This document shows, one piece after another, positions 1,782-28,537 of a stretch of 33,123 nt of DNA. The stretch is taken from contig VEPA01000054.1 in assembly GCA_012026675.1 (NCBI GenBank), positions 1 through 33,123 of the forward strand, read 5' to 3'. The notes under the pieces were generated by a model. It worked only from the letters and a program-made list of their open reading frames with translations, was not told where the DNA came from and ran no database searches. The position numbers and the translations under genes were made by a program. The DNA comes from Betaproteobacteria bacterium. GTDB lineage: Bacteria > Pseudomonadota > Gammaproteobacteria > Burkholderiales > Rhodocyclaceae. Each line of letters opens with the position of its first letter. Positions within the stretch are counted from its first letter, which is position 1.

Positions 1782-3931
1782 CAGGCCCCTCGCCGCCAGG
1801 CGTGGAAGCGCCGCACCCAGGCCAGCAGGCGTTCCGGCGCATGGGCCTTCTTCCATACCCCGGCGACATACTTGTTGGCCTCGGCCAGGGTCGGGTAGAT
1901 GTGGATGGTGCCGAGGATCCTGTTCAGGCCGATGCCGTGCTTCATCGCCAGAACATACTCGGCGATGAGGTCTCCCGCGTGGTCGCCGACGATGGTGACG
2001 CCGAGGATGCGGTCCTTGCCCGGCACGGTCAGCACCTTGACGAAGCCGTGCGCCTCGCTGTCGGCAATCGCCCGGTCGAGGTCGTCGATGTAATAGCGGC
2101 TGACTTCATGCGCAATGCCCTGCTCCTTCGCCTCCGTCTCGTTGAGCCCGACGCGTGCCACTTCGGGCTCGACGAAGGTGGCCCAGGGAATCACCGAATA
2201 GTCGACCTTGAACTTCCGGAAGGGATCGAACAGCGCATTGACAGCGGCATACCAGGCCTGGTGCGCCGCTGTATGGGTGAACTGGTAAGGCCCGGCGACA
2301 TCGCCGGCAGCATAGATGTTCGGGTAACTGGTCTGCAGGAACTCGTTGGTGTCGACCGTGCGCGTCGCCGCCACGCCGATGTCCTCCAGCCCGTAGCCCT
2401 TGAGGTTGGCTACACGGCCGACGGCGACCAGCACGTCATCGAAAGGAATGCGCACCTCGCGGCCCTCATGTTCGGCGATCAGGATCTTCTCGCCCTTTTC
2501 GATGACGAACTGTTTGGCCTTGTGGTTCAGCAGTACGCCTATGCCCTCCTTGCCGAAGCGCGCGGCGACGAGTTCCGAGACTTCCGGGTCCTCCCGGATC
2601 ATCAGTCGCGGCAACATTTCGACCTGCGATACCTTCGATCCGAAACGGGCGAAGGCCTGAGCCAGTTCGCAGCCGATCGGCCCGCCGCCCAACACCACCA
2701 GTCGACGCGGCAGTTCGCGCAGGTCCCACACCGTATCCGACGTCAGGTAGCCGACCTCCTCGATACCGGGAATCGGCGGTACGAAGGGCCGCGCACCGGC
2801 GGCGATGACGATGCTGCGCGTGCTCAAGCGTTCGACGACACCGTTGTTGCGCGTGACTTCGACTTCCCAGGGCGAGACGATCTTCGCGCCGCCCTCGATC
2901 ACCTCGACGCCGAGTCCGATGTAACGCTCGACCGAATCATGCGGCTCGACCTGGCGCACGATGCGCTGTACGCGCTCCATCACGTCGGCAAAGTCAAAGT
3001 CGGCGCCGGTGACACGGCGAATTCCGAATTCTTCGGCGCGCGAAACATGCGACAGGAACTTCGCCGAGCGGATCAGGGCCTTCGACGGCACACAACCGGT
3101 GTTCAGGCAGTCGCCGCCGAGCTTGTGCTTTTCGATCAGGGTGACTTTCGCCTTGACCGCGGCGGCGATGTAGGCCGTGACCAGGCCGGCACTGCCGCCG
3201 CCGATGACGACGATGTTGCGATCAAACTTCGCCGGCCGCTTCCAGCGCGCATAGACCTTGCGCGCCTTGATCGCGTCGACGATTTTCTTGGCGATCAGCG
3301 GAAAGAAACCGAGCAGGGCAAACGAGGCGATCAGGCCCGGCGAGAATATGCCGGAGAGGCTGGTGATGCCGGCCAGTTGCGTGCCGGCATTCACATATAC
3401 CAGGGTGCCGGCCAGCATGCCGAGCTGGCTGATCCAGTAAAAGGTGGCCGCGCGCATGGGGGTCAGGCCCATCAGCAGGTTGATCATGAAGAAAGGAAAC
3501 ACCGGCACCAGGCGGAGGGTGAACAGATAAAAGCCGCCCTCCCTTCCAACACCGAGATTGATCGCACGCAGGCGCTCGCCGAAGCGCCCCTGCACCCAGT
3601 CGCGCAACAGGAAGCGCGAGGCGAGAAAGGCCAGCGTGGCGCCGATCGACGAAGCGAAGGAGACCAGCACCGTGCCCCACAGCAGGCCGAAGATCGCCCC
3701 GGCGGCGAGCGTCATCACCGCTGCGCCGGGCAGGGACAGCGCGGTGACCGCCACATAGATGACGAAGTAGATGGCGGACGCCAGCCAGGGATTGGCCTGG
3801 CGATAGGCTTCGATCGACGCCTGGTGGGCCTTCAGCGCGTCGAGGCTGAAATAGCGGCCGAGGTCGAGCGCGATGTACAGCCCGATTACGGCGGCAAGGG
3901 CTACGAGGACCAGCAGCTTGCGTAGTGACAT
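1781..3931 (-). CDS. VTT (TVP38/TMEM64) membrane domain fused to mercuric-reductase-like flavoprotein
   Basis: A 716-residue fusion. Residues about 1-225 form a hydrophobic TVP38/TMEM64 (VTT, SNARE-associated, DedA-like) domain with several membrane segments. From about 238 a pyridine nucleotide-disulfide oxidoreductase of the mercuric reductase/dihydrolipoamide dehydrogenase type follows, with a GGGSAG dinucleotide-binding motif, the redox-active Cys pair C275/C280 in GGDCLNTGC, an NAD(P)H motif GGGPIGCELA, AAGDVAGPYQFTH and the C-terminal His-Glu segment HIYPTLAEA. There is no N-terminal heavy-metal-associated domain and no terminal vicinal Cys pair, so true mercuric reductase activity is unlikely. 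The fusion places an NAD(P)H-dependent disulfide or quinone-type reductase at the inner membrane. It sits 13 bases after a stand-alone VTT gene. It contains one copy of the dispersed 20-bp repeat. Confidence 0.9.
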   Translation of the reverse strand: MSLRKLLVLVALAAVIGLYIALDLGRYFSLDALKAHQASIEAYRQANPWLASAIYFVIYVAVTALSLPGAAVMTLAAGAIFGLLWGTVLVSFASSIGATLAFLASRFLLRDWVQGRFGERLRAINLGVGREGGFYLFTLRLVPVFPFFMINLLMGLTPMRAATFYWISQLGMLAGTLVYVNAGTQLAGITSLSGIFSPGLIASFALLGFFPLIAKKIVDAIKARKVYARWKRPAKFDRNIVVIGGGSAGLVTAYIAAAVKAKVTLIEKHKLGGDCLNTGCVPSKALIRSAKFLSHVSRAEEFGIRRVTGADFDFADVMERVQRIVRQVEPHDSVERYIGLGVEVIEGGAKIVSPWEVEVTRNNGVVERLSTRSIVIAAGARPFVPPIPGIEEVGYLTSDTVWDLRELPRRLVVLGGGPIGCELAQAFARFGSKVSQVEMLPRLMIREDPEVSELVAARFGKEGIGVLLNHKAKQFVIEKGEKILIAEHEGREVRIPFDDVLVAVGRVANLKGYGLEDIGVAATRTVDTNEFLQTSYPNIYAAGDVAGPYQFTHTAAHQAWYAAVNALFDPFRKFKVDYSVIPWATFVEPEVARVGLNETEAKEQGIAHEVSRYYIDDLDRAIADSEAHGFVKVLTVPGKDRILGVTIVGDHAGDLIAEYVLAMKHGIGLNRILGTIHIYPTLAEANKYVAGVWKKAHAPERLLAWVRRFHAWRRGA
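2999..3018 (+). repeat. Dispersed 20-bp repeat, copy 1
   Basis: The bases read GTCGGCGCCGGTGACACGGC. The two copies in the uup gene differ from it at one position only (C for T at position 12). It lies inside the VTT-flavoprotein gene, where on the coding strand it is read as V-T-G-A-D within RRVTGADF, a third reading frame compared with the other copies. All four copies are preceded by an A. Confidence 0.7.
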
Positions 3932-3944
3932 CAGTCTTCCCGCG

Positions 3945-4514
3945 CTAAAGCAGATTTAGCGCCTTGGCCAGATAGTCGAAGAACAGACAATACAGCAGGA
4001 TCGGCAAGGGCAGGCCAAGCAGCGTGCCGATCAGGTAGGGACGAAAGCGGACACCCGACATCGCCAGTGCGTAGTTGAGCGCGGGCACCGTCTGGAACAG
4101 CATGCGCAGCAGCACGATGATGGCGACGGGGTGGCTGTCGAGCCGGCCCAGCAAGTAGGTCGCGATCCGGTTATCCAGCCGGCGCAGCGCGTCGCCGCCG
4201 ACGAAACGGATGACGACAAAGGTTGCCGCACAGGAAATACCGGCGGCGACGTAAGTGGCGATTCCACCCAGGGCGCGTCCCAGGGTCAGCACGGCTGCCG
4301 CCAGGAACAGCCAGCCGGGAATCTGGATCAGGTTCCCCAGTGCGAACAGCAGGACGAATACCAGCAGGCCGCCCAGCCGGTGTTCGAGGATTTGCTGTTG
4401 CAAGGCGGCCAGCGTGAAATGCTCGTCCAGATCGGTCAGCCGAAAAACGGCAAACAGGATCGCGAGGAACAGAACGACCGCAATCAGCCTCCGGTATTTG
4501 AGCAATGGCGACAC
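3945..4514 (-). CDS. TVP38/TMEM64 (VTT) family inner-membrane protein
   Basis: About 189 residues with several hydrophobic helices and the VTT core: a basic N terminus (SPLLKYRRL), a membrane segment IAVVLFLAILFAVF, GNLIQIPGWLFLAAAVLTLG, and the family's ALNYALAMSGVRFRPYLIGTLLGLP segment. The start is GTG at 4514, preceded by a GGGGG stretch 5 bases away; the open frame continues far upstream (to 5072) but that part is the shadow of the doxX gene. It is followed after 13 bases by the VTT-flavoprotein fusion, so two VTT domains are encoded side by side. VTT proteins are linked to lipid handling at membranes; the cargo here is unknown. Confidence 0.82.
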   Translation of the reverse strand: MSPLLKYRRLIAVVLFLAILFAVFRLTDLDEHFTLAALQQQILEHRLGGLLVFVLLFALGNLIQIPGWLFLAAAVLTLGRALGGIATYVAAGISCAATFVVIRFVGGDALRRLDNRIATYLLGRLDSHPVAIIVLLRMLFQTVPALNYALAMSGVRFRPYLIGTLLGLPLPILLYCLFFDYLAKALNLL

Positions 4515-4569
4515 TCGAACCCCCAGCCCGCGCGACACGGCAACAGGCTGATTGTACGGCGGCGGCAAG

Positions 4570-4586
4570 CCCGGCCGAAGGCCGGG
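4570..4586. other. GC-rich hairpin between doxX and the VTT gene
   Basis: A perfect 7-bp inverted repeat (CCCGGCC, three-base loop, GGCCGGG) in the 131-base gap between doxX and the VTT gene. No T-run follows on the minus strand (CTTGCC), so it is at best a weak terminator or an RNA-processing and stability hairpin separating the bufferin operon from the downstream genes. Confidence 0.45.
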
Positions 4587-4645
4587 AAGCAGGTCGCGCG
4601 GGGGAAACGACCCCCAATCACCGGCGGCCCGCAAGGCAATGCGTC

Positions 4646-5182
4646 CTAGCGTTCGGTGCGGGCATGGCGCCGCGCGATCAAGTGGTCGATGGATAGAACT
4701 CCCGGGCCTTTGGCGACCAGAAAAAGCAGCACCGCCGCCCAGACACCATGTGTCGGCCAGGCGTCGGGATAGACCAGCAACTGTATGGTTGCGGTCATCG
4801 CCAACAGCGCCGCCGCCGAAAACCGCGTCGCGAGTCCGATAAGAATCAGCAGCGGAAACAGATGTTCGGCAAAGGCCGCCAGCGGCGCGGCGATTTCGGG
4901 CGGGACCAGCGGCAACTTGTACTCGTCGCGGAACAAGGCGACGACCGAATCGGAAAGCCGCGGCAGCCCCAACTGGAACTCGCCACTGACGATATCGATG
5001 GCGAAGCCCTGCACCTTGGTCTGGCCTGATTTCCAGAAGATCGCTGCAATCGAAAAACGGCCGAGCAGGCAAATCAGCGAATCCGGGATGCGCGCGGCGA
5101 TCCCGATCGCGGCGCGGATCGGGCCCTCCAGCCGGCAGGCATGGGCGCGTGGTGCCGAGGCGAGTGTCGTGGTCGAATTCAT
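4646..5182 (-). CDS. DoxX family membrane protein, last gene of bufferin operon
   Basis: A 178-residue inner-membrane protein with four predicted membrane segments and DoxX features: an N-terminal helix SLICLLGRFSIAAIFWKSG, then AAPLAAFAEHLFPLLILIGLATRF, SAAALLAMTATIQLLVYP and WAAVLLFLVAKGPGVLSIDHLI. Its ATG overlaps the stop of the DUF2063 gene by four bases (ATGA), so it is co-translated with it. The order DUF2282-DUF692-DUF2063-DoxX matches the Caulobacter gig (bufferin) operon, in which the DoxX protein is the fourth member. Its precise role is not established; a redox or membrane function in metallophore maturation or use is inferred from context. Confidence 0.88.
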   Translation of the reverse strand: MNSTTTLASAPRAHACRLEGPIRAAIGIAARIPDSLICLLGRFSIAAIFWKSGQTKVQGFAIDIVSGEFQLGLPRLSDSVVALFRDEYKLPLVPPEIAAPLAAFAEHLFPLLILIGLATRFSAAALLAMTATIQLLVYPDAWPTHGVWAAVLLFLVAKGPGVLSIDHLIARRHARTER

Positions 5183-5964
5183 GATGTCGTACTCCCTGAG
5201 ATCGTTAAGTCGGCGAGGGCCCCGCTGCGGACAAGCAAGCCGAGCGTCTGCGCCAGATCGAAGCGGCTGTCGGCGTCCAGGGCCTGCCCGGCCGCGAGGC
5301 CGAAAGCCCGGCCTTGTTGCAGAAGTTCGATGAAGATGGCCGCGGCTTCGTCGATGACGGAGATTTCCACCTCCAGCCCGTTACGCAGAACGAGGGCGGA
5401 TTCCGCGCTTGCCGTGTCGATCGTTGCCAGCGACGATGACGGCGCTTCGGATTGATGCGCGGCCCACAACGAGACCACAGCATGGCGCGAACGCAGCAGC
5501 CGGACCGAGGGATGCAGCGTGAAGCGGGCTTGCGGCAGGGCTGCGGCGTCATCCAGCAGGCGGACTATGGTTTCCGCCGCGACCGCTGCGGCATCGGCGG
5601 CGTGCCAGGCCTGCACGCGCATGAGTTCCAGACGCGCCAGGTCGGCGAGATAGCTCAGCGCCGCCACCGGCGGAAAGGCTTCGATGAATTCGGCAAAACC
5701 GTCGCCATACAGGGCCAGTACCGGCGAGCGGGGTGGTGTCTGCCGCGCAAACTCGCGCGCCATGGCGCGGAAAAAATCTTCGCCCACCAGTTGCAGAGTC
5801 ACCGGAAAACTGTCTGCCAGCGCATCGACGAGACCGACGGTGACGGTGTTGCGATAGACGGCGAAACGCTTTTCCGGCGCCGATCCGTTCCATGTCGTGA
5901 GGCCCGGCGGACAAACCGGTTCCGCGGCGAGCAGTGCTTCGGCGAATGCCTGCCGAGCGTTCAT
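5179..5964 (-). CDS. bufC: DUF2063 protein, BufC-like bufferin maturation partner
   Basis: About 261 residues beginning [16 protein letters not shown]. The N-terminal part carries the HvfC/BufC (DUF2063) pattern: [23 protein letters not shown], then a short linker and [14 protein letters not shown] with [12 protein letters not shown]2063 proteins are the partner of DUF692 enzymes and are thought to present the precursor peptide to them. The start ATG overlaps the stop of the DUF692 gene by four bases, and its own end overlaps the doxX start in the same way, so three genes are translationally coupled. The open frame runs on to 6321 but overlaps bufB there and is not expected to be used. Confidence 0.88.
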
Positions 5965-6875: not shown

Positions 6876-6905
6876 GACAGACGCTCCGGGCAGCTCGTCA
6901 GGCAA

Positions 6906-7220
6906 TCAGGCCTTCTTTTCCTTGAACTCCATGAGTTGGCCATTGCCGGTCGGCGAGGTCTTGGACATGGTCTTCTCGCAGGTGCCCTTGGGCACCATCG
7001 ACCAGGCGTTACCCTGGTGGTCCATCTTCGAGGTGCCGGCGCAAGTGGTGCCCGCGCCCGCCTTGCAGTCGTTCTTGCCCTTCAACGCTACCCCGAAGCA
7101 CTTTTCGGTTTCCGCCTTCATGGCGCCGCCATGAGAGGCTGCATGGATGGGGGCGGCGGCCATTGTCATGGCGGCGCCCAGGGCCAGGGCGAGGGAAGCT
7201 GCGTTCATTGTCTTGTTCAT
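6906..7220 (-). CDS. bufA: DUF2282 periplasmic bufferin precursor, BufA1-like
   Basis: A 104-residue precursor with an N-terminal signal peptide ([20 protein letters not shown], ending near AAAPIHA). The mature part has the DUF2282 signature with four cysteines at 41, 52, 60 and 81 ([36 protein letters not shown]). In described bufferins, cysteines of such a precursor are oxidatively modified by the DUF692 enzyme and the secreted product buffers copper or other thiophilic metals in the periplasm. The ATG at 7220 has an AAGGAG ribosome binding site at 8 bases. It is the first gene of a four-gene operon and is followed after 30 bases by bufB. A candidate ECF-type promoter lies about 75 bases upstream. 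Confidence 0.92.
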
Positions 7221-7295
7221 CGCGTTACTCCTTGTGATTTGGTAAAGACTTCCGTAAGTTGCAGACACTGCGACAGATTGCGCCTGCTGCGGCTT

Positions 7296-15837: not shown

Positions 15838-17751
15838 TCAGCCCTTCGCCTCCAAAGCCTCCCAGCGCAACAGGGCCGCATCGATCTCGGCATCGACCTT
15901 GGCCAACCTTGCCTGCACTTCACGCTGGGCTTCGGCCGGCTCCTGATAGAAGGCCGGATCGGCCAGCCGGCCTTGCAGCAAGCCCTGCTCGGCTTCCAGC
16001 GCGGCGATGCGATCGGGTAGCTGTTCGAGCTCACGCTGTTCCTTGAAACTCAGTTTCTTGCGCTCGGCGGGCTTCGTTTTTGCCGTGTCGCCGGCGCCGA
16101 CTCTTGAAGCCGGCTTGGCGTCGGGACCGCCCGTGGCATCGAAGCGCGCCGCGCCGCCGGCCGGCCGCTGGCGCAGCCAGGCGCTGTAGCCACCGACATA
16201 TTCCTTCCACTGCCCATCGCCTTCGCTGGCGATGGTCTGCGTCACCACGTTGTCGAGGAAGGCCCGGTCGTGGCTGACCAGGAACACCGTGCCGGAATAG
16301 TCCTGCAGCAGTGCTTCGAGCAGCTCCAGGGTTTCGATGTCGAGGTCATTGGTCGGCTCGTCCAGCACCAGCACATTGGCCGGCCGCGCGAACAGGCGCG
16401 CCAGCAAGAGCCGATTGCGCTCGCCGCCGGAAAGCGACTTGACCGGCGAACGCGCGCGCTGCGGGGCGAAGAGGAAATCCTCCAGATAGCCGATCACATG
16501 CTTTTTCGTGCCGCCGATCTCGACATAGTCCGAACCCGGACTGATGACTTCGCACAGCGGCGCCTCGGGGTCGAGCTGGGTGCGGAACTGGTCGAAGTAG
16601 GCGACTTCTATGCGGCTGCCCAGTTGCACCTTGCCGGAGTCGGGCTGCAGCTCGCCGAGGATCAGGCGCAGCAGCGTGGTCTTGCCCGTGCCGTTGGCGC
16701 CGATCAGGCCGACCTTGTCGCCGCGCTGGATGCGGCAGGAGAAGTTCTTCACCACAGTCTTGTCGCCAAAGCGTTTCGAGACATCTTCAAGTTCGGCCAC
16801 CAGCTTGCCGGAGGCGTCACCGCGCACCACTTTGAATTCCACCTTGCCCAACTGCTCGCGCCGTGCCGCGCGCGCCGCACGAAGTTGTTCGAGGCGCTGC
16901 ACGCGACCGACGCTGCGCGTGCGCCGCGCCTCCACACCCTTCCTGATCCAGATCTCCTCCTGTGCCAGCATCTTGTCGGCGCGGGCATTGGCCAGCGCTT
17001 CTTCGTTGAGCATGAACTCCTTGCGTTCCTGGTAGGCGGCGAAACTCCCCGGGAAGCTCACCAGCCGGCCCCGGTCGAGTTCGACGATGCGCGTCGCCAC
17101 GCTGTCGAGGAAGACCCGGTCGTGGGTGATTACCATGATGGCGCCGGCATAACCGCGCAGCAGATCCTCCAGCCAGAGGATGCCATCGACATCGAGGTGG
17201 TTGGTCGGCTCGTCGAGCAACAGCAATTCCGGCTCGGCCACCAGCGCCCGCGCCAGGGCGACGCGCTTCTTGCCGCCGCCGGAGAGCGCATCGACGCGCG
17301 CGTCACCGTCCAGCGCGAGGCGCGAAATGGCCTGTTCGACGCGCGAATTGAGCCGCCAGCCGTCGTTGGCCTCCAATTGCGACTGCAACTCATGCATGCG
17401 ATCCATGGTCGCCGTGTCGCCGGCGCCGACTTTGTGGGTTATCTCGTGGTACTCGGCGAGCACCCGCGCCACGTCGCCGAGGCCGGCCGCGACGGCTTCG
17501 AACACCGTGTCGTGAGTGGCGAACTCGGGCTCCTGCGGCACATAAGCGATGGAGAGGCCCGGTTCGCGCCAGACCTCGCCGTCGTCGAGCGAGCCGAGAC
17601 CCGCCAAGGCCTTCAGCAAGCTGGATTTGCCGCTGCCGTTGCGGCCGATGAGGCCGCCGCGCTCGCCGGCGTCGATCTGCATGGCAGCGTGGTCCAGCAG
17701 GGCAACATGCCCATAGGCCAGACAGGCACGATCGAGGGAAATGACAGGCAT
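15838..17751 (-). CDS. uup: ABC-F family ATPase, Uup-like
   Basis: A soluble 637-residue protein with two ABC ATPase domains and no membrane segment. Domain 1 has GRNGSGKSS, LSGGGKKRVALARAL and LLLLDEPTNHLD; domain 2 has GANGTGKTT, LSGGERNRLLLARL and VLVLDEPTNDLD. Between them is the basic interdomain linker (ARADKMLAQEEIWIRKGVEARRTRSVGRVQRLEQLR) typical of ABC-F proteins that act on the ribosome. A C-terminal coiled-coil extension (FKEQRELEQLPDRIAALEAEQ) is the DNA-binding type tail of Uup. Two copies of the dispersed 20-bp repeat are read in the same frame as VGAGDTA, at residues 108-114 in domain 1 and 551-557 in the linker before the tail. The second looks like an insertion in a flexible region. 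Confidence 0.93.
   Translation of the reverse strand: MPVISLDRACLAYGHVALLDHAAMQIDAGERGGLIGRNGSGKSSLLKALAGLGSLDDGEVWREPGLSIAYVPQEPEFATHDTVFEAVAAGLGDVARVLAEYHEITHKVGAGDTATMDRMHELQSQLEANDGWRLNSRVEQAISRLALDGDARVDALSGGGKKRVALARALVAEPELLLLDEPTNHLDVDGILWLEDLLRGYAGAIMVITHDRVFLDSVATRIVELDRGRLVSFPGSFAAYQERKEFMLNEEALANARADKMLAQEEIWIRKGVEARRTRSVGRVQRLEQLRAARAARREQLGKVEFKVVRGDASGKLVAELEDVSKRFGDKTVVKNFSCRIQRGDKVGLIGANGTGKTTLLRLILGELQPDSGKVQLGSRIEVAYFDQFRTQLDPEAPLCEVISPGSDYVEIGGTKKHVIGYLEDFLFAPQRARSPVKSLSGGERNRLLLARLFARPANVLVLDEPTNDLDIETLELLEALLQDYSGTVFLVSHDRAFLDNVVTQTIASEGDGQWKEYVGGYSAWLRQRPAGGAARFDATGGPDAKPASRVGAGDTAKTKPAERKKLSFKEQRELEQLPDRIAALEAEQGLLQGRLADPAFYQEPAEAQREVQARLAKVDAEIDAALLRWEALEAKG
16082..16101 (-). 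repeat. Dispersed 20-bp repeat, copy 2
   Basis: On the minus strand it reads GTCGGCGCCGGCGACACGGC, identical to copy 3. It encodes VGAGDTA at residues 551-557 of the Uup protein, in the low-complexity linker before the C-terminal coiled coil. Confidence 0.75.
17411..17430 (-). repeat. Dispersed 20-bp repeat, copy 3
   Basis: Identical over all 20 bases to copy 2, same strand and same reading frame, encoding VGAGDTA at residues 108-114 of the same Uup protein. The local protein context (THK before, TMDRM after) is a helical, length-variable part of the first ABC domain. Confidence 0.75.
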
Positions 17752-18029: not shown

Positions 18030-18698
18030 ATGATGACTGCCGAAGTTTCGACCATCGAAGAAGAACTCGCCCTGGCCCAGGCCGATGCCCGTGACATGAA
18101 GCGTACGGTGATCGCCCTGCGTACCGAGCTCGAAGCGGCGCACGCTGAAATTCATGACTCCACGCTGCGCGCCACCCAGGCCAGCGCGGCCGAGATTTCA
18201 CAACTGAAAATCACCGTTGGCGCCCTGCGTGAAGAGCTCGAGCGCGCGCGCGTCGAACGCGAAAAAGCCATCCAGCAGGAACGTGTCGCCGCCAATCAGG
18301 AATCCCAGATGCTCAAGGCCACGGCCGCCGCCTTGCGTGAGGAACTGGAACGATCGCACGCCGAACGCGACCGCGCAGTGCAGCAGGAGCGCGTCGTCGG
18401 CCACAATGAAATGCAGCAGTTGAAGGCCACCTCGGCAGCCCTGCGCGAGGAACTGGAGCGCGCGCGGGCCGATACCGACAATGCCGTGCGCATGGCGCTG
18501 GTCACCGCGCAAGGCGAAATTGCGCAACTGCGAGAGACAGTCAGCGGCTTGCGTGAAAGCCTTGAACTGGCACAGATCGACACGACCAATTCGGTCAATC
18601 GCGAGCGCACCCTGTTCGCCGACGAGGGCGCCCAGCTGCGACAGACGATCCAGGCCCTGCGCGACCAGATCGAAGCCATGCAACGGACATTGACATGA
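18030..18698 (+). CDS. Coiled-coil protein of 36-residue repeats
   Basis: A 222-residue, almost purely helical protein with no membrane segment or signal. From residue 23 it consists of five full units of exactly 36 residues plus a partial sixth, each starting with a pattern like LKxTxxALREELERARAE (units at 23, 59, 95, 131, 167 and 203). I know of no family for it. The stop overlaps the start of the adenylate cyclase gene as ATGA, so both are made from one mRNA and translation is coupled, which suggests a scaffold, clustering or regulatory partner of the cyclase. ATG codons at 18030 and 18033 are both possible; neither has a good Shine-Dalgarno sequence. Confidence 0.85.
   Translation: MMTAEVSTIEEELALAQADARDMKRTVIALRTELEAAHAEIHDSTLRATQASAAEISQLKITVGALREELERARVEREKAIQQERVAANQESQMLKATAAALREELERSHAERDRAVQQERVVGHNEMQQLKATSAALREELERARADTDNAVRMALVTAQGEIAQLRETVSGLRESLELAQIDTTNSVNRERTLFADEGAQLRQTIQALRDQIEAMQRTLT
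18096..18695 (+). repeat. Tandem 108-base coding repeats
   Basis: Five complete 108-base units begin at 18096, 18204, 18312, 18420 and 18528, with a partial unit from 18636. Each encodes one 36-residue coiled-coil unit. The spacing is exact although the sequences have diverged. Confidence 0.8.
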
Positions 18699-21001
18699 AT
18701 GCCATCGACCCAACCGCCGAACCCGGCGGTACGAAGAAAAGAGTGCCGGAACGCGACCAGGAAAGTCGGCGTCGGCTGCGTCATCTCGAGCTGCTGCTTG
18801 AAGTGACGCGCCGCATGGCGGGCTACGGCACGCTCGACGAAGTGTTGCGGGCCCTGGTGGAAATGACCACCGCGGAACTGAATGCCGAGCGCGGCTCGCT
18901 GTTCCTCAACGACCCCGATACCAACGAGCTTTATTCGCGCGTCGCGCAGGGAAATATCCAGCGCGAAATACGCATCCTGAATACCAGCGGCATCGCCGGC
19001 TACGTCTACACTTCGGGCGAAGCGCTGATCATCCACGATGCCTATGCAGACGACCGCTTCAACCGTTCGATCGATGAGCAGACCGGCTTCACCACCCACG
19101 ACATCCTTTGCGTACCGATCAGGACGGTCAAAGGCGAGATCATCGGCGTGGCGCAGACGCTCAACAAGCGCAGCGGGAAGTTCACCAAGCAGGACCTGCA
19201 TCTGCTCGAAGCCATGACCAGCCAGGGCACCCTGGCCCTGCAAAGCGCGCAGTTCATCGAGCGCATGCAGGCCATCCGCCGCCAGGAGATGGAGTTCATC
19301 GACGTCGTCTCCGAGGTCACCGCCGACATCAAGCTCGGGTCCCTGCTGCAGAAGGTCATGGGCGAGGCGACGCGCCTGCTCAATGCCGAACGTTCCACGC
19401 TTTTCCTCAATGACGAAAAAACCAACGAGTTGTGGTCGGAGGTCGGCCAAGGCCTGGAATCGGTGCAGATCCGCCTGCCCAACCATCTCGGCATTGCCGG
19501 TGCCGTATTCACCTCGGGCAAGGCGATCAACATTCCCTACGCCTACGCCGATCTGCGCTTCAATCCGGCCTTCGACAAGAAGACCGGCTACTTCACGCGC
19601 TCCATTCTCTGCGTGCCCATCACCAACAAGCACGGCAAGGTGATCGGCGTCACCCAGGTGCTGAACAAGCGCGGCGGCCCCTTCACCGGCGATGACGAAT
19701 CGCGCCTGCGCGCCTTCACCGCGCAAATTTCGATCGCGCTCGAAAATGCCAAGCTGTTCGCCGACGTGCAGAACATGAAGAACTACAACGAGGCGATGCT
19801 GGAGTCGATGTCGAACGCGGTGATCACACTGGATGAGTCGGAGAAGATCGCCACCTGCAATGCCGCCGGCCTGCGCATCCTGCGCGTGACGCCGGCGCAG
19901 ATCCTGCAAAGGCCGGCGACGGAATTCTTCGCCGGCAGCAACGCCTGGGTCCAGGAAAAGCTCAAGCGCGTCGGCGAAACGCAGACCACGGAACTGGCGA
20001 TGGAAGCCGAACTCATCGTCGGCGAGGAAAAGCTATCGGTCAACCTGACCGCCCTGCCCCTGTTGTCGGCGGAGAAGAAGCGGCTCGGCTCGATGCTGAT
20101 GCTGGAGGACATCTCCAGCGAGAAGCGCATGCGCTCGACCATGTCGCGCCTGATGGACCCGGGCATCGCCGACCAGATGCTGGCCGGCGGCGTCGATGCG
20201 CTGGGCGGCAAGAATGTCGTGGCCACGGTTCTCTTCTCCGACATACGCGGCTTCACCACCATCACCGAAGCACTTGGCGCCCAAGGCACGGTGGCCCTGC
20301 TCAACGAATACTTCACGCTGATGGTCGATTGCATCCAGCGCGAGGAGGGCATGCTGGACAAGTTCATCGGCGACGCCATCATGGCCGCCTTCGGCATCCC
20401 CGTGGGCCACGACGATGACGCCGACCGCTCGGTGCGCACTTCGATCGCGATGATCCGCGAGTTGTGGAACTGGAACAAGCTGCGCGTTAATGAAGGCAAG
20501 CTGCCCGTCGATATCGGCATCGGCTTGAACACCGACAACGTCGTGTCCGGCACCATCGGCTCGAAGAAGCGCATGGACTACACGATCATCGGCGACGGGG
20601 TGAACCTCGCCGCGCGATTGGAGTCGGCCTGCAAGCAGTACGGCTCCCACATCCTGATCAGCGAGTTCACCTACAAGGCGCTCAAGGCGACCTACTACAG
20701 CCGCGAACTCGACCTGGTGGTGGTCAAGGGCAAGACCAAGCCGGTCGCCATTTATGAGATCCTTGACTATCACACGGACGAAAGCTACCCGCAGATGATC
20801 GACGCCTTGCGTCATTTCAAGTCGGGACTGGTGAAATACCGGCAGCAGAAGTGGAACGACGCGAAAGGAGAGTTCGGCGAAGTGCTGGCCCTGAATGAGC
20901 ACGACAAGGCAGCGAAAATGTATATCGAGCGCTGCGATCACTTCCTTGCCAACCCGCCCGGCGATGGCTGGAACGGCGTCTGGGTCATGGAATCCAAGTA
21001 A
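18695..21001 (+). CDS. GAF-GAF-PAS class III adenylate cyclase
   Basis: A 768-residue soluble signalling enzyme. GAF-A spans about 40-190, GAF-B about 205-355, a PAS domain about 365-480, a class III cyclase domain about 505-690 and a helical TPR-like tail to the end. The metal-binding Asp residues are D516 (FSDIRGF) and D560 (FIGDAIMA). K556 and D628 are the residue types that select ATP, and N637/R641 for the transition state are intact, so an active adenylate cyclase is predicted. GAF-B has a complete NKFDE motif (N324, K325, F330, D334, E335) as in cyclic-nucleotide-binding GAF domains; GAF-A has N157, K158, F163 and D167 but Leu instead of the final Glu. The layout resembles cyanobacterial CyaB1. 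Its start overlaps the coiled-coil gene by four bases. Confidence 0.93.
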   Translation: MNAIDPTAEPGGTKKRVPERDQESRRRLRHLELLLEVTRRMAGYGTLDEVLRALVEMTTAELNAERGSLFLNDPDTNELYSRVAQGNIQREIRILNTSGIAGYVYTSGEALIIHDAYADDRFNRSIDEQTGFTTHDILCVPIRTVKGEIIGVAQTLNKRSGKFTKQDLHLLEAMTSQGTLALQSAQFIERMQAIRRQEMEFIDVVSEVTADIKLGSLLQKVMGEATRLLNAERSTLFLNDEKTNELWSEVGQGLESVQIRLPNHLGIAGAVFTSGKAINIPYAYADLRFNPAFDKKTGYFTRSILCVPITNKHGKVIGVTQVLNKRGGPFTGDDESRLRAFTAQISIALENAKLFADVQNMKNYNEAMLESMSNAVITLDESEKIATCNAAGLRILRVTPAQILQRPATEFFAGSNAWVQEKLKRVGETQTTELAMEAELIVGEEKLSVNLTALPLLSAEKKRLGSMLMLEDISSEKRMRSTMSRLMDPGIADQMLAGGVDALGGKNVVATVLFSDIRGFTTITEALGAQGTVALLNEYFTLMVDCIQREEGMLDKFIGDAIMAAFGIPVGHDDDADRSVRTSIAMIRELWNWNKLRVNEGKLPVDIGIGLNTDNVVSGTIGSKKRMDYTIIGDGVNLAARLESACKQYGSHILISEFTYKALKATYYSRELDLVVVKGKTKPVAIYEILDYHTDESYPQMIDALRHFKSGLVKYRQQKWNDAKGEFGEVLALNEHDKAAKMYIERCDHFLANPPGDGWNGVWVMESK

Positions 21002-21073: not shown

Positions 21074-21169
21074 GCTCTTGCGGTGCAACTGATTTGACTG
21101 CTGTTGCACCAGCATCAACTGGCAAACAACACGCCCCGCTCTCGCCGGCCCACCAGCGCCGACTATCAA

Positions 21170-22195: not shown

Positions 22196-22196
22196 T

Positions 22197-23275: not shown

Positions 23276-23333
23276 CACCGCCCGCCCGGATGGCAGGAAA
23301 ATTATCGCAACTTCTTGTGAGCGAACGAGAGAG

Positions 23334-24830
23334 ATGAAAACCGGGTGGTCCATGCCGAGGGCGACCAAGAGCCAGGCGAAGGCGATCATGTGCTGGCTCC
23401 GGGAGTCGGTTTGTTGCAGCGTCGTTGCGGCCGTAATTCTCGGTGGCAGTTCGACTGCAAGTCTGGCCGCAGACGGTCAGGACTCTCCCAAGGGAACCAC
23501 TGTCGACAAGGCCGAAATCGGACATCTAGAAGAAGTCCGGCCGCGGGAACTCGCCCCGGGCCAAGAACGCAGTGTTCAGGTTCTGGCCGCCGAGGAGCGA
23601 TGGCAGAGTTCAGGCATCCTCGTGCAGGACGGGCAGACCTACCGCATCGAGGCCAGCGGCGAGTGGAAATTGGGCCCCCTCTGCAATCGTGGCGGTCCCA
23701 CAGGCAAGGACATGTACACCCTCTTGTGTTTCCCGCTCTTCCAGCCGGTAGTACGGGGCTTCAGCATCGGAATGCTAATCGCGAAAATCGGCCGGGATGG
23801 TAATCCTTTCCCGGTGGGAGACAAGATCGAGTTCGAGGCGAGTCGCGACGGCATCCTTTACTTCAGGACAAACGAATACCCTGGCTGGGCCTGGGACAAC
23901 AGTGGTCAGGTAACGGCGGTGGTGAGGCTGGTTCAGGACACCGCACACGCCTCACCTGCGAGGCAGCCGGCTGGCGCGACGCCTGAAGCAAAGGCACCCA
24001 CGGCTCCCCAGGCGACCCCCGCGGTCTCCGCACGGAGCCAGCACTGGGCGGTGGTGATCGGCGTGTCCGATTATGCGGACAGCCAGATTCCGTCACTGCG
24101 CTTTGCGAACGCCGACGCCAAGGCCGTCTACGACTGGTTGGTGGCCCCGAACGGCGGCCGCTATGCCCCAGCGAGAGTGAGGCTGCTGCTTGATCGGGAA
24201 GCGACGGCCACCAACATCCGCGATTCCTTGTTCAACTGGCTCCGGCAGTCGATCGCCGAGGACGTGGTCTTGATCTATTTCGCGGGGCACGGGTCGCCAG
24301 ATTCGCCGGACAGCGCCCAGAACCTATTCCTGCTTCCCCACGATACCCGTTACGACAATGTCGCGGCTACCGGCTTTCCCATGTGGGACATCGAAACTGC
24401 GCTAAAGCGCTTCATCCCGGCGCGGCGCGTGGTCGTGATCGCCGATGCCTGCCACTCCGGCGGGGTCGGAGCCAGCTTCGACATCGCCCGCAGGACCACC
24501 ACCCGCGGCGAGCCGGCGAACCCGATATCGTCCGGATTCCAGAGCCTTTCCAAGGTAGGTGACGGTATCGCCGTCATCAGCGCTTCTGATGAGAGGCAAC
24601 TCTCAGCCGAGGGCGCCCGGTTCGGCGGCGGCCATGGGGTATTCACGTACTTTCTCTTGGAGGGGCTTAAGGGGTCGGCCGATTACAACCGCGACGGACA
24701 GGTCTCGCTCGGGGAGTTGATCCCCTACCTGTCGGAAAACGTGCGGCGCGAGACTCTGAGCGCCCAGAGCCCGACAGTCGCCGGCAAGTTCGACCCGGCG
24801 ATCTCCATTGCCCGTCAGCCTGCACCATAG
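23334..24830 (+). CDS. Secreted caspase-like protease (metacaspase) with LecA-like domain
   Basis: About 498 residues. The N terminus has a hydrophobic signal segment (CCSVVAAVILGGSSTASLAA), so export is expected. Residues about 85-200 resemble the PA-IL/LecA-type lectin fold (WQSSGILVQDGQTYRIEASG, MLIAKIGRDGNPFPVGD, FEASRDGILYFRTNE, DNSGQVTAVVRL). A Pro/Ala linker (205-232) leads to a caspase-like p20 domain with the catalytic His H319 in YFAGHGSPD and Cys C373 in DACHSGG. Residues 450-461 (DYNRDGQVSLGE) are a canonical EF-hand loop, fitting calcium control of metacaspases. I chose ATG 23334, next to GAGAG; the frame is open from 23229. It lies in the accessory patch behind an FNR-type box. 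The target is unknown. Confidence 0.9.
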   Translation: MKTGWSMPRATKSQAKAIMCWLRESVCCSVVAAVILGGSSTASLAADGQDSPKGTTVDKAEIGHLEEVRPRELAPGQERSVQVLAAEERWQSSGILVQDGQTYRIEASGEWKLGPLCNRGGPTGKDMYTLLCFPLFQPVVRGFSIGMLIAKIGRDGNPFPVGDKIEFEASRDGILYFRTNEYPGWAWDNSGQVTAVVRLVQDTAHASPARQPAGATPEAKAPTAPQATPAVSARSQHWAVVIGVSDYADSQIPSLRFANADAKAVYDWLVAPNGGRYAPARVRLLLDREATATNIRDSLFNWLRQSIAEDVVLIYFAGHGSPDSPDSAQNLFLLPHDTRYDNVAATGFPMWDIETALKRFIPARRVVVIADACHSGGVGASFDIARRTTTRGEPANPISSGFQSLSKVGDGIAVISASDERQLSAEGARFGGGHGVFTYFLLEGLKGSADYNRDGQVSLGELIPYLSENVRRETLSAQSPTVAGKFDPAISIARQPAP

Positions 24831-24857
24831 CGATATCGCCCGAGACTGCTGCGACGA

Positions 24858-25023
24858 GTGCCAGCACGATTTCCGATCGCCCACTCGTGCAAGTGTCGTG
24901 GCGTATGCCCCTCGCGCGATTTGTGTCGACAGCGCATCGATGAAACGGCTCCATACCTGGTCAATGACGTTTCTCCGCCGCTACCGACGCGACAATGGGT
25001 GCTGGCGATGCCCGAGCGGTTGA
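24858..25023 (+). pseudogene. Decayed IS91-type transposase fragment
   Basis: One frame reads AHSCKCRGVCPS, then after degraded residues E-T-A-P-Y-L-V-N-D-V-S-P-P-L-P-T-R-Q-W-V-L-A-M-P. This matches the zinc-ribbon and following segment of IS91-family transposases (SCKxRGxCPSC, MAExAAxLVDxVLPxxPxRQWVLSxP). The second Cys of the CPSC motif and the rest of the protein are missing. It starts soon after the metacaspase stop and is a relic of the event that shaped this patch. Confidence 0.7.
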
Positions 25024-25109
25024 ATCCAAGTGCAGTGAGCGGACGCTCTTAACCCAGTGTGCGGACTAGCCATATGGGATACTGCCCGACGAATTCCAAA
25101 GGAGCACCA

Positions 25110-25199
25110 ATGGCCGCAATCAGTCTGAAGCACTCATTCAGGCGAGAAACTGCCAGGTCGCCGGCCACCGTCTCCTACAGACTGTCAACGGCCAGTTGA
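25110..25199 (+). CDS. Possible 29-codon small ORF
   Basis: The sequence AAAGGAG stands 5 bases before an ATG that opens a 29-codon frame, M-A-A-I-S-L-K-H-S-F-R-R-E-T-A-R and on to S-T-A-S before TGA. The product is basic and unlike anything I know. It may be a real small peptide or the start of a gene that was later destroyed, since the site is next to the transposase remnant. Confidence 0.3.
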   Translation: MAAISLKHSFRRETARSPATVSYRLSTAS

Positions 25200-25630
25200 T
25201 ATTTTTATGCTGGATGGCCGTTCCCCGCCACAAAGCGGAAGTGGAACGAATGGGAAAGCTGCCGCTCAACGTTTTGGACCACCTGCCAGCGCAAACTACT
25301 TGCGCGCAAGTGCCAGTTCCCTTGCTGCACGAACTATGTTCGAAGGCACTCTGCTTGACACTGAAAGCAGAGACAGCGCTTCTTGGTCATGGAGTCGAAA
25401 TAAGACTGCGGACAGCTACTAGCAAGGACCCTCAGCAAGGCCAATGTCATCCGCTACCGGTTTCGCCTGACCGTGAATATCTCGGTTCAAGATCAAGGTC
25501 TCATGACGCCGGATCCAGGCTGAGCGATAGCAGGCCCTCGCTTGCCACCTTCGCTCTCCAACCGGGAATTGCAGCTCTTGCGGCTTGCCTTGTGTTGGCA
25601 CTTTGCGTTTACTTTCGGTTCGCCTTAGCC
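25200..25630. other. Region without a convincing gene
   Basis: One plus-strand frame (25196-25648, 150 codons) is open and ends with a hydrophobic stretch (GIAALAACLVLALCVYF), but it has no ribosome binding site, no family resemblance, and overlaps the end of the convergent cyclase gene. No repeats or RNA signals stand out. Confidence 0.45.
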
Positions 25631-26782
25631 TCATATGCGAGCGTTTAGGAGGTAGGTCGCTATTTGACGATCTCCCCCCTTGAGCGACAGACGGCCCTGT
25701 TCCGTGAAGGCATAGCGGACCTTCAGCTTCGTCCTCAAAGTCTCGCTCACCAGAATCGAACCAGGCGCGGCGATCGACTGCAACTGCGCCGCGATATTGA
25801 CCGTTTCACCCCAGAGATCATAGGCGAAGCGCAGGCTGCCGATCACGCCAGCGACCACCGGCCCGCTGTGCAGACCAATGCGTATGCGCAAGGGTTTGCC
25901 GTCGGGCCGGGTCATGGACAGTACTTCGCGCTGGATCCGCAGGGCCATGTTCGCCGCCGCTGCGGCGTGGTCAGGGTTCGGCGTGGGTACACCGGCCACG
26001 GCCATATAGGCGTCGCCGATGGACTTGATCTTTTCCAGTCCATAGTACTGCGCGAGTTGGTCGCAGGCGCTGAACACATTATCCAGCCAAGCGACCAGTT
26101 GCGCAGCGGGCAAGCTCGCTGCAAGCGAGGAAAAGTCCGCCAAGTCGACAAACAGAATCGTCGATTCCGGGAAATGCTCCGCGATCATTCGCGGGCCGTC
26201 GCGCAACTGTTCCGCAATCGGTGCCGGCAGGATGCGAAAGAGTAGGCTTTGATAGGATGTCTGCGCCTCGATGACCGTCTGCTGCAAAGTGCCAAGTTCG
26301 GTCAGGTTAAGTTCGCGCTCCACGATTGCTGCGAGATCCTGCAGGATCTCGCACTGATGATCTGACAACTCGCGTGGCCTTCTGTCAATTGCACACAGCG
26401 TGCCGACGCGATGTCCACCGGGGCCGCGCAGCGGATGGCCCGCGTAGAAGCGGATGTGGGGATCCGAAACCACCAGTGGATTATCGCGGAAGCGCCAATC
26501 ATTCGTCGCGTTGGGAATGACGAAAGTCTTGTCTTCCATGATGGCGTGGGAGCAGAACGCAAATTCGCGCGGCGTCTCCGTCACCATCACGCCGACGCTG
26601 GACTTGAACCACTGGCGTTCGGAGTCGACCAGGGAGACGAGCGCGATGGGTGTATCAAGGAGCTTGGCAAGCAGGCGCGTGTAACAATCGAAGCGTTCTT
26701 CGCGGGGTGTATCGAGGATCCGGAGACTCCGCAATGCAGCTAGTCGCTCGGCCTCATCGTGCAGCGCTGGTGTCTGGGTCAC
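25631..26782 (-). CDS. GAF domain adenylate cyclase (class III)
   Basis: A 383-residue soluble protein. A GAF domain of the type that starts RLAALRSLRILDTPREERFD spans about 10-160 (FCSHAIMEDKTFVIPNA, GHPLRGPGGHRVGTLCAID). A class III cyclase domain follows from about 200. Metal Asp residues D213 (FVDLADF) and D257 (SIGDAYM) are present, and K253 and D322 (YDLWGETVN) select ATP. N329 is kept, but the transition-state Arg four residues later is Gln (Q333), so activity may be reduced. The start is GTG at 26782, where the GAF similarity begins; the open frame continues to 27136 but overlaps the divergent gene. No Shine-Dalgarno sequence is seen, while TATACT lies 6 bases upstream, so a near-leaderless mRNA is possible. 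Confidence 0.88.
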   Translation of the reverse strand: MTQTPALHDEAERLAALRSLRILDTPREERFDCYTRLLAKLLDTPIALVSLVDSERQWFKSSVGVMVTETPREFAFCSHAIMEDKTFVIPNATNDWRFRDNPLVVSDPHIRFYAGHPLRGPGGHRVGTLCAIDRRPRELSDHQCEILQDLAAIVERELNLTELGTLQQTVIEAQTSYQSLLFRILPAPIAEQLRDGPRMIAEHFPESTILFVDLADFSSLAASLPAAQLVAWLDNVFSACDQLAQYYGLEKIKSIGDAYMAVAGVPTPNPDHAAAAANMALRIQREVLSMTRPDGKPLRIRIGLHSGPVVAGVIGSLRFAYDLWGETVNIAAQLQSIAAPGSILVSETLRTKLKVRYAFTEQGRLSLKGGDRQIATYLLNARI

Positions 26783-26864
26783 GGGGAAAGTATACACCGG
26801 CCTAGTCAAATTGCCTTTTGACCCGGTTTGGTCGATGATCCAGTGTTTTGGCGGGGAGATATCT

Positions 26865-27968
26865 GTGTCGTCGAACAGAGATAAGGTTCTGATAGTGGAA
26901 AGCGAAACGAAGCTTGCGAGGGGCGTCGCTCGAGAGTTGCAAGACCGGGGTTTTGAGGTATTTCTGGCGTCCGACGCGATGGATGCCCTCATCGCGGCAC
27001 GCAAATTTAGCCCTGACGTGGCATTGATCAACAGTGAGCTGGAAGGTGGCGGCGGAATTGTCGCCCTGAAGAGCATTCGCTGCAACGCATTCACCACCAA
27101 CATTCCTGTCATCATCATCATCGCGCCCGAGAGCACAGCGAACGAGCGTGACTATCTCGATGCCGGGGCACAGGAATGCGTGGTGTCTCCGCTTTCGAGC
27201 GAGGCGATGCAGCTGGCGTTGCAGCGTCATGCACTGAAGTCGCTCGATTTCACCCTGGCTCCGGCGGAGGCGATCACGCACCCGGATCGCTTGGCTGCTT
27301 TGCGCGAAACTTCGCTACTCGATACCCCTCCGGAAGAATCCTTTGACAGACTCACGCGCCTGGCTTCGCATCTTCTTGGGGTTGGCACGGCGCTCCTTTC
27401 GCTTGTGGACACGGATCGCCAGTTCTTCAAGAGCCAGGTCGGTCTCCCGCAGCCCTGGGCGACCATGCGACAGACCCGCCTGTCATACTCGTTTTGCCAG
27501 TGGGTGGTTTCCAGCCGGGAGCAACTCGTCGTGGAAGACGCCAATGAGCATCCGGCACTGCGCGCCAACCTCGCGGTGAAGGATCTGGGTGTCATCGCCT
27601 ATGCGGGTGTTCCCGTGAAAGGGCGAGGCGGGCAAGTGCTCGGTTCGTTCTGTGCAATACATTCCGAGCCACGCACCTGGAGCAACGAAGACGTGGAAAC
27701 ACTGCACGATCTGAGCCGGGTGAGTGAAGTCTATGCCTTGCTCGACCGGGCGAAACAAGGAACCGACACGCCAGCATCTAACGCGCAGACGAATCTGGAG
27801 ATATCGATCCATGTCGCAGGGAACGCCATCACCAGCGCAGCGCGAATATTGAGCCGCTACGGTACCCGGATGGATGATGCCGACCGCAGCGACCTGCTCG
27901 CGATCATTCTGGAGCAGGGCAGGCATCTGGCACAGCTCGTACCCGACCCGCATTTTCCCTGCACTTGA
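26865..27968 (+). CDS. Pseudo-receiver plus GAF domain protein
   Basis: About 367 residues. The N-terminal 120 residues look like a response-regulator receiver fold (DKVLIVESETKLARGVARE, PDVALINSELEGGGG, PVIIIIAPES, GAQECVVSPLSSEAM), but the phosphoacceptor Asp is Asn (N56) and the conserved Lys before Pro is Ser (S108), so it cannot be phosphorylated in the usual way. A GAF domain (about 135-310) follows, closely related to that of the divergent cyclase (RLAALRETSLLDTPPEESFD, SFCQWVVSSREQLVVEDA, GVPVKGRGGQVLGSFCAIH). There is no output domain; the C-terminal 50 residues are helical. The start is GTG with GGGGAG at 6 bases; the ATG at 26835 is an alternative. It probably senses or modulates cAMP signalling with its neighbour. 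Confidence 0.85.
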   Translation: MSSNRDKVLIVESETKLARGVARELQDRGFEVFLASDAMDALIAARKFSPDVALINSELEGGGGIVALKSIRCNAFTTNIPVIIIIAPESTANERDYLDAGAQECVVSPLSSEAMQLALQRHALKSLDFTLAPAEAITHPDRLAALRETSLLDTPPEESFDRLTRLASHLLGVGTALLSLVDTDRQFFKSQVGLPQPWATMRQTRLSYSFCQWVVSSREQLVVEDANEHPALRANLAVKDLGVIAYAGVPVKGRGGQVLGSFCAIHSEPRTWSNEDVETLHDLSRVSEVYALLDRAKQGTDTPASNAQTNLEISIHVAGNAITSAARILSRYGTRMDDADRSDLLAIILEQGRHLAQLVPDPHFPCT

Positions 27969-28099
27969 TTTGAAGCCGGGGAGCGCACTGCGATAGTTGG
28001 AGCAGCCGAATCAGGCAGGCATCGCGATGCAGCAGTGCGCAACTCTGGAACTTGCTTTGATAAGCGGCACTGGATGCGAGGTTACCGGAACCCGCGGGA

Positions 28100-28537
28100 T
28101 TACTTGATGCGGGTCAGAAAAGGCCGTCCGGGAGTGCGCTCGGAAGTTGGTGCGGGTGACACGGCGGAGGATGTCTTGTCCGGGATCGCATCCGACGTCT
28201 CGCCATCGGTGACAACGCCACCTTCCGGCCTTTCGGTGACTTCAAAAGCCATGCCCTCCCCGTTCTCGCGGGCGTAGATCGCCGCAACCCGCTCGATGGG
28301 AACCACCACCGGGAAAGCGCGCCCGCCAAAGCGCGCCTGGAAGGTAATTTCCTCGTTGCCCAGCAACAACTGATGTGTCGCTTCGAGACCGACGTTGAGG
28401 ACGATCTCGCCGTCCTTGACGAATTCACGGGGCACACGGGTCGACGCATCCACCTTGACCGCCAGATAAGGCGTGAAGCCCTGATCCGCACACCATTCAT
28501 GAATGGCGCGGATCAGGTAGGGCTTGGTGGTTTTCAT
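28100..28537 (-). CDS. sspB: ClpXP protease specificity-enhancing factor SspB
   Basis: A 145-residue adaptor that tethers SsrA-tagged proteins to the ClpXP protease. The conserved SspB domain is visible: KPYLIRAIHEWCADQGFTPYL, VPREFVKDGEIVLNVG, HQLLLGNEEITFQARFGG and VPIERVAAIYARENGEGMAF. A variable linker follows and ends in a short basic-hydrophobic tail (GRPFLTRIK), corresponding to the ClpX-binding tail of the family. The linker contains one diverged copy of the dispersed 20-bp repeat, read here as AVSPAPT (residues 125-131). It lies 46 bases downstream of sspA in the usual order. Confidence 0.95.
   Translation of the reverse strand: MKTTKPYLIRAIHEWCADQGFTPYLAVKVDASTRVPREFVKDGEIVLNVGLEATHQLLLGNEEITFQARFGGRAFPVVVPIERVAAIYARENGEGMAFEVTERPEGGVVTDGETSDAIPDKTSSAVSPAPTSERTPGRPFLTRIK
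28146..28165 (+). repeat. Dispersed 20-bp repeat, copy 4
   Basis: GTTGGTGCGGGTGACACGGC, 16 of 20 matches to copy 1 and 15 of 20 to copies 2 and 3, again preceded by A. It lies in the linker-coding part of sspB and, read from the minus strand, gives AVSPAPT. Confidence 0.55.

Follow-up and report, generated by a model that had tools for sequence, protein, structure and literature searches.

A possible uptake-sequence-like self-recognition element, with dialects, in Sulfuritalea and related genera

Genome-wide tags of self are well known in the Neisseriaceae and the Pasteurellaceae (PMC3630211). A 33,123-nt stretch of DNA from a member of the Rhodocyclaceae (Betaproteobacteria bacterium, assembly GCA_012026675.1, contig VEPA01000054.1; this whole stretch is called the window) contains copies of a 27-bp element that we tentatively read as an uptake-sequence-like self-recognition watermark with dialects, belonging to Sulfuritalea and several related genera: this is the reading that we would put first, with a probability somewhat short of even. 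With the DNA uptake sequences (DUS) of the Neisseriaceae (PMC3630211) the element shares a copy number in the hundreds to thousands, placement both within and between genes, the lack of a palindrome, restriction to related taxa, and lineage dialects that lie one or a few bases apart. It differs from the DUS in its length (27 bp in place of 10-12 bp), its density of about one copy per 5 kb, the infrequency of inverted pairs, the existence of hairpin-bearing long forms, its hosts (Rhodocyclaceae and their kin) and in being known from sequence alone. The GTAG- and CGTC-tagged repetitive extragenic palindromic (REP) sequences are likewise short, of high copy number and partly intragenic, with one class that lacks a dedicated transposase (PMC3733652); the element, unlike these, is without palindrome, tagged stem or head-to-head dimers and is not mainly extragenic. 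Membership of the REP class fails: the element is not palindromic, 74 of 133 copies have a clear coding frame, a single close opposite pair is found among 94 copies, and no transposase tracks it.

The extended uptake signal sequence (USS) of the Pasteurellaceae is near 30 bp long, starts with a run of A followed by GT, and has AT-rich flanking tracts. The element resembles it as a genome-wide tag of similar length with an A-run ahead of GT, and differs in sequence, in hosts and in having no AT-rich tracts beyond the short A-run. The Rickettsia palindromic elements (RPE) are palindromic insertions within reading frames; the element is also found inside reading frames, but its short form is not palindromic and a clear insertion event is not seen. 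Closest in size class are the small dispersed repeats (SDR) of cyanobacteria, which Elhai is said to have described in 2008 as 21-27 nt long, dispersed inside and outside genes, and apparently nested with small hairpin repeats. Size, dispersal, genic and intergenic placement and apparent nesting are common to both; what sets the element apart is the absence of recent precise insertions, while constraint, dialect and degradation (described below) point to upkeep in place. As a member of the SDR class it fails on recent precise insertion, no filled and empty site pairs being found in the alignments made, one of 266 (-3 bp) apart.

The copies in the window, and the gene that holds two of them, are the following (scores are those of the weight matrix defined below; ORF is open reading frame):

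2994..3020, + strand: element copy 1, antisense in a FAD-oxidoreductase fusion gene (ORF 1781-3931, - strand), reads RRVTGADF; score 34.1
15838..17751, - strand: uup gene (ABC-F ATPase), contains copies 2 and 3
16080..16106, - strand: element copy 2, in the Uup C-terminal linker, in frame, RVGAGDTA; score 38.4
17409..17435, - strand: element copy 3, Uup site 1, reads KVGAGDTA; score 36.3
21142..21168, - strand: element copy 4, diverged, about 140 bp past a sensor-kinase-like ORF (18695-21001); score 26.2
28141..28167, + strand: element copy 5, diverged, antisense in sspB (ORF 28100-28537, - strand), reads AVSPAPT; score 23.3

The initial annotation had listed four copies of a 20-mer, and all four lie where it placed them: at 2999-3018 (+), 16082-16101 (-) and 17411-17430 (-) with 0 mismatches, and at 28146-28165 (+) with 3, counted against the Y-containing 20-mer pattern. 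It overlooked a diverged fifth, GTCGGCGCTGGTGGGCCGGC at 21144-21163 (-). Its gene contexts are confirmed, the protein families agreeing: Uup twice (VGAGDTA), SspB (AVSPAPT) and a FAD-oxidoreductase fusion (VTGAD). Shuffled windows are expected to contain 0.03 copies, and none of 100 shuffles reaches four. In the Uup alignment, Sulfuritalea and Rugosibacter sequences have the peptide of copy 3 in common, slightly varied.

The 20-mer is a real core, and the whole unit, c[AG]A[AG]A-GTCGGCGCYGGCGRNACGGCG, is directional and measures 27 bp (positions -5 to +21 of the aligned copies). A weight matrix over these positions was built from 118 aligned seeds; it was applied to a sample of 627 kb, made up of the window and 40 other stretches, 20 of which came from contigs already known to contain matches, the others having been picked blind. 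At a score of at least 14, 132 sites are found, compared with 1 in the reversed and 0 in the second-order-Markov control; between thresholds of 8 and 20 the number of sites drops by little, from 145 to 128, and the family is thus sharply separated from background. The motif carries 30.5 bits of information. Position 8 takes either C or T, there is little constraint at positions 13-14, and the A that was seen to precede the core in 4 of 4 window copies precedes about 97% of the 132. The imperfect palindrome read into the window copies turns out to be an accident of those copies: the 27-bp unit is non-palindromic, its short form has no conserved stem, and the bases of the supposed dyad are the most variable ones, the A (0.44) and C (0.39) of the "CGAC" arm being the least conserved positions of the core.

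In the whole of the window's genome (G000, a draft of 3.58 Mb in 267 contigs) the 20-mer occurs 473 times with up to 3 mismatches (232 + 241 on the two strands), against 12 (6 + 6) for the reversed pattern. This is far above background and, together with the shuffled windows and the matrix controls, rules out chance and composition. Among 61 genomes searched in the same way, all 31 of Sulfuritalea have 90-720 copies; the 30 genomes from outside the genus, of other genera and of other families, range over 0-42, around or somewhat over their reversed controls. A family sample of 249 genomes, searched with up to 2 mismatches, gives high counts (280-754) for Sulfuritalea (except G016, with 58), for the single members of g32 and g62, and for most or all members of g43 (7 of 8), g70 (4 of 4) and g88 (7 of 7); counts are intermediate in G076 (61) and G098 (73), and nearly all the remaining genomes have 0-20. 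The earlier suggestion of a dispersed short repeat family is thus supported in G000, its congeners and the family sample alike. Among the named Uup loci collected, copies are present in Rugosibacter and in a number of unnamed Rhodocyclaceae; Uup loci sampled from Accumulibacter, Azonexus, Dechloromonas and Methyloversatilis have none. By Uup, the nearest named relatives of the window are metagenome-assembled genomes (MAGs) filed under Sulfuritalea, Rhodocyclales and beta proteobacterium; a MAG labelled S. hydrogenivorans sk43H matches at 91%.

What is constrained is DNA. A codon-usage frame test of 133 sample copies places 44 in sense (31 in frame 0, 13 in other frames) and 30 in antisense, with 59 unclear or intergenic. 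The per-position profile is identical in frame-0 sense, other-frame sense, antisense and unclear or intergenic copies, positions 15-17 reaching at least 93% in each class; since sense, antisense and unassigned copies look the same, the constraint lies on the DNA and not on protein. Strand bias about the origin was examined in 400 kb of G002, a complete genome in which DnaA-box-like sites suggest an origin near position 1: the 200 kb on the two sides contain 21+/19- and 25+/29- copies, that is, no replichore bias. On that ground, and for the same 400 kb, a polar motif such as KOPS or Chi is excluded.

The history of individual sites was followed by comparing a 20-kb region with 8 copies with its counterparts in 20 other Sulfuritalea genomes; gapped element alignments, flanks shorter than 35 bases and, for the dialect test, orthologues scoring below 14 were excluded before pairs were counted. 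In the tree of the compared region G027, G001 and G015 form one clade, and in this clade the element is spelled differently: at position 2, directly following GT, 37 of 47 copies have T, compared with 6 of the 132 in G000 and 0 of the 124 in G002. Forty-one of the clade's copies have an outgroup orthologue; T stands in 31 of them, at about 16 distinct sites (a hand count from the list), and the outgroup has C in 287 of 295 pairs. As a control, the clade has GTT where the outgroup has GTC in 34 of 897 cases in the flanks, and in 228 of 276 pairs inside the element. In the 238 T-versus-C pairs, agreement with the orthologue is 0.81 at the variable bases 8, 13 and 14 (0.47 for random pairs, 0.61 for other sites of the clade) and 0.69 at bases -4, -2 and 21 (random 0.35). 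Retention of these site-specific bases argues for editing of the sites in place and against overwriting by a master copy: judged by these matches, many sites of the clade are shifted by one base in step, without recopying. A second dialect, GTCGACGC, is found in 16 of 16 copies among the matches listed for G098 (73 in total). In G023, 3 copies out of 6 show C instead of the first G, too few for judgement.

In three further genomes the sites are degraded. At orthologous sites the mean matrix score is 4.7 in G016 (drawn from 57 kb), 15.8 in G025 and 17.3 in G021, compared with 26.5-34.6 in 19 other genomes; flank identity is 0.79-0.86 in degraded and other genomes alike. Genome-wide counts agree (90, 201 and 172 for G016, G025 and G021, as against 294-720 in the other 27 congeners). 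The degraded sites are scattered point variants, with no new consensus apparent; some of these places may never have been full elements. The three genomes share one part of the tree, in which the high-copy G010 and G012 also fall, with weak support. From the shift of dialect in place and the degradation of the same sites in three genomes, which are the main signs of active upkeep, we infer that a trans-acting, sequence-reading process would hold the sites near their consensus.

The sites themselves are old. Of 1807 alignments of an element with its orthologous place, the element is present in 1526 and lacking in 266, with 15 intermediate; the two best-covered sites are occupied, one in all 21 genomes and one in 20 of 21, and the others of the 16 listed sites are patchy (two, L219 and L136 at -4095, rest on single-genome, low-scoring matches that may be chance). 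By these alignments the sites are mostly inherited within Sulfuritalea. The initial annotation had imagined insertion into tolerant linkers. Among the 266 element-free places 99 have the same 27 bp, 137 are longer (30-93 bp, many of them long forms of the element), 29 measure 12-24 bp and 1 measures -3 bp, so that no clean 27-bp empty site is found in these alignments, the single -3 bp alignment (itself unexamined) being the nearest to one; nor is there one in the Uup-centred loci, a comparison dominated by both Uup sites. At Uup site 1 the proteins with the element are not 7-9 residues longer than relatives without it but shorter, by 1-6 residues. Insertion as the mechanism finds no support in any of this. 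Of the contrary picture, that of ancestral sites conserved as protein, the first half holds, mostly within the genus, and the second does not, the constraint being on DNA. A Sulfurisoma MAG and other relatives (L070, L072, L075, L076, L081, L084) also have the element in the Uup C-terminal linker, in a different frame with a peptide of the KSALAGR type, which suggests an independent acquisition there.

How might such sites be kept? In natural transformation, a surface DNA receptor would favor tagged fragments, and recombination would then put tagged alleles in the place of those whose tag is missing or misspelt (molecular drive), in the manner of DUS in the Neisseriaceae and USS in the Pasteurellaceae. 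A change in receptor specificity would produce a dialect; loss of the receptor would let the tag decay. The rare hairpin-bearing long forms are alternative alleles at the same sites. More tentatively than upkeep as such, and by analogy with the Neisseriaceae dialects as precedent, a tag-reading receptor would account for the DNA-level motif, the dialect change and the degradation. Three hallmarks of DUS are found in the element: 1) one short, non-palindromic motif is over-represented genome-wide; 2) it occurs in both orientations, in coding sequence and in several frames, with constraint on DNA; 3) it has lineage dialects consistent with phylogeny, in the clade of G001, G015 and G027 and, for the listed copies, in G098. 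Of the two ideas offered by the initial annotation, the uptake-signal-like one is therefore the better, by virtue of a DNA-level motif on both strands without replichore bias, its dialects and its degradation in some lineages, although a function in uptake would be a further step. With less assurance, one may go further and see here another, independently evolved uptake system, with a 27-bp tag, at least two dialects, lineages that are losing it, and hairpin-bearing long alleles that may represent an ancestral or parasitic state.

A number of observations weigh against a simple uptake tag. The cores of DUS and USS are shorter and poorer in information than the 30.5-bit motif. Close opposite pairs are common for DUS; opposite-strand pairs of the element within 100 bp are almost absent (one among 94 copies in G002). 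Even spacing is significant in two stretches of G002 (0.05 and 0.004) and not in seven contigs of G000 (0.39). Across 1422 orthologous pairs the difference per base is 0.140 in the element, hardly below its flanks (0.145 and 0.163); in the same pairs it is at most 0.05 at the near-fixed positions 0, 1, 3-5, 9, 16 and 17. On accumulation in the core genome and depletion in foreign DNA, which a DUS would show, the signs are contradictory: the shared sites and L127, which is largely accessory and has 0 copies in 20 kb, speak for it, and L297 and L300, which lie mainly in strain-variable segments and have 3 copies each, speak against it. The degradation pairs, 40 for G016, 58 for G025 and 50 for G021, come from just 7, 5 and 5 distinct subject sequences, and the matrix that scored them was trained on G000, with queries selected at a score of at least 28 and gapped alignments excluded. 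The hairpin modules (described below) have no place in a simple uptake tag. Finally, there are the competence genes. ComEC is found in 30 of 31 Sulfuritalea genomes, as are matches to the ComP_DUS type of pilin, and both are found equally in the degraded genomes and in most element-free relatives; ComEA is above cut-off in 0 of the 31, with 19 weaker matches whose frames are mostly near 800 aa. As genes that might track the element, ComEC, ComP_DUS and ComEA all fail to discriminate.

Two other explanations remain serious rivals. The first makes the copies binding sites of a DNA-binding protein with a chromosome-wide role (in nucleoid structure, replication or repair), each site under weak selection; a change of specificity would then give a dialect, and loss of the protein degradation. 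DNA constraint, occurrence on both strands, absence of replichore bias, dialect and degradation fit this as well as they fit uptake, and competence genes need not track the element. The difficulties are quantitative: about 700 sites in 3.6 Mb need some 13 bits (our own arithmetic), yet the motif has 30.5, and a lineage-wide shift of one base demands an effect at every site, which is where drive acts. No candidate protein emerged among the Y1 transposase, ComEC, ComP_DUS and ComEA families, to which the search was confined. On balance we consider a binding-protein origin rather unlikely.

The second rival, a little more doubtful in our estimate, takes its cue from the long forms. At the same sites some genomes have an extra module between AAAGT and GGCGCTGG, of two kinds: A, which is TCCCGNAGGGACGCANNGCGCT, and C, which is TATGCGNAGCGGTATCC-(loop)-GGGAC; other long alleles have an extra module between GGCGCTGG and the final CGGCG. 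The A form is present in 31 of 31 Sulfuritalea genomes (1-36 copies; 0 in reversed controls) and the C form, as an exact pattern, in 21 of 31, its left half being found also in G099, G153 and G199, which belong to other element-bearing genera. The 33 C forms of the collected loci have a loop stretch of either 6 or 9 bases, so that a reading frame is preserved; the listed copies G030:C67 and G020:C398 are exceptions, one base shorter. At four sites of the compared region long alleles occur in one to three genomes, and short ones in the others, sisters included. The site of window copy 2 has the longer A form in L039, L048 and L085, and that of copy 5, judged by flank similarity, in L039 and L050.

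A mobile repeat of very small size, akin to SDR, REP or RPE, could have spread in an ancestor of these genera, its copies being homogenised since by mutual recombination; the long hairpin forms would be the mobile units and the 27-bp form a trimmed derivative. The long forms just described are what such a history would leave, as are the near-identical A forms repeated within G005, G003 and G014 (in tandem in G003), the several listed A stems that are altered on both sides (TTCC/GGAA, TCTC/GAGA), the second Uup site that is long in 3 genomes and short in the others, and the 27-mer that sits in the Uup linker of other relatives in a different frame. Set against this are the want of a clean empty site, save for the one -3 bp alignment of 266; a dialect that altered one base while the site-specific bases stayed, where copying would have erased them; and the relics in G016, which are scattered point mutants. 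Nor are the hairpins convincing as folds: among A stems in the collected loci a two-sided change is seen in 1 of 37 (34 are TCCC/GGGA), and whole-fold z-scores are weak (-1.50 to +0.96, 5 sequences). Y1 transposase does not follow the element either, G018 (99% complete) having 495 copies and no Y1 match. The REP-associated transposase (RAYT/Y1) as the maintainer of the element was separately rejected, there being no correlation, no match in G016 with its 90 copies, and Y1 matches also in element-free families.

The last rival, a recurring linker motif (VGAGDTA) selected as protein, the DNA being alike through shared codon usage, is highly improbable: sense frame 0 is indeed the largest coding class (31 of 74 assigned copies), the peptide is retained at Uup site 1, and synonymous-codon resampling that keeps the peptides still leaves a mean of 21.4 matches, but 30 of the 74 are antisense, the profile is the same in every class, and in 414 long mechanical ORFs 100 copies are found against that mean (maximum 26) in 20 resamplings, a strict control because peptides are kept. 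The antisense copies, the class-independent profile and the resampling refute a protein motif as the main cause, and the codon-matched control called for at the outset thus comes out in favor of the element.

Returning to the uptake-sequence-like reading, one may ask what the system offers. To our knowledge a 27-bp tag would be the longest uptake tag known, and the origin of dialects and the extinction of tag systems are, so far as we are aware, still open questions. Here more than 20 genomes of a single genus offer the same orthologous sites for reading, and three states are seen among them, namely standard, shifted dialect and degraded, which makes the drive model testable by sequence comparison. 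If the uptake reading is true, a self-recognition system could be followed site by site from its birth through a shift of dialect to its death; if uptake is not the cause, a sequence-specific factor would still read several hundred sites per chromosome in these bacteria. Searches of the open-licence literature found no account of the element, of a related repeat in Sulfuritalea, of a DNA uptake sequence in Rhodocyclaceae or of natural transformation in Sulfuritalea hydrogenivorans, and on those searches the element appears previously unreported in its host group.

Some lesser observations may be recorded. A ComP_DUS-type pilin match adjoins the compared syntenic region in several genomes (G005:C122:28983, G007:C92:75200, G025:C73:134334, G028:C35:23625). 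A scan of L212, L223 and L215 (60 kb) for RNA families, at E-values up to 5, gave 9 matches, namely a tRNA and weak ones, which were not compared with element coordinates. In g43 a genome of 2.3 Mb, 87% complete (G293), has 0 copies where its seven congeners have 374-736; complete loss or a misplaced bin is possible. Two MAGs titled Propionivibrio dicarboxylicus and Klebsiella pneumoniae (L057, L079) have Uup that ranks within the Rhodocyclaceae-type set, and the labels look doubtful. G003 has two tandem arrays, G003:C25:34016-34142 and G003:C52:15108-15234, each made up of three A-form units that begin with CTTCCC and follow one another every 49 bp. Another hairpin-like module, CCGAAGGAAGTCCC..GGGG and its variants, is found within the element as if nested there; its orientation in L242 and L253 is the reverse of that at the start of L047 (- strand). 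In the window, the 716-aa product of ORF 1781-3931 (-) has an N-terminal hydrophobic region ahead of its FAD-dependent oxidoreductase part, the family matches beginning at residue 228.

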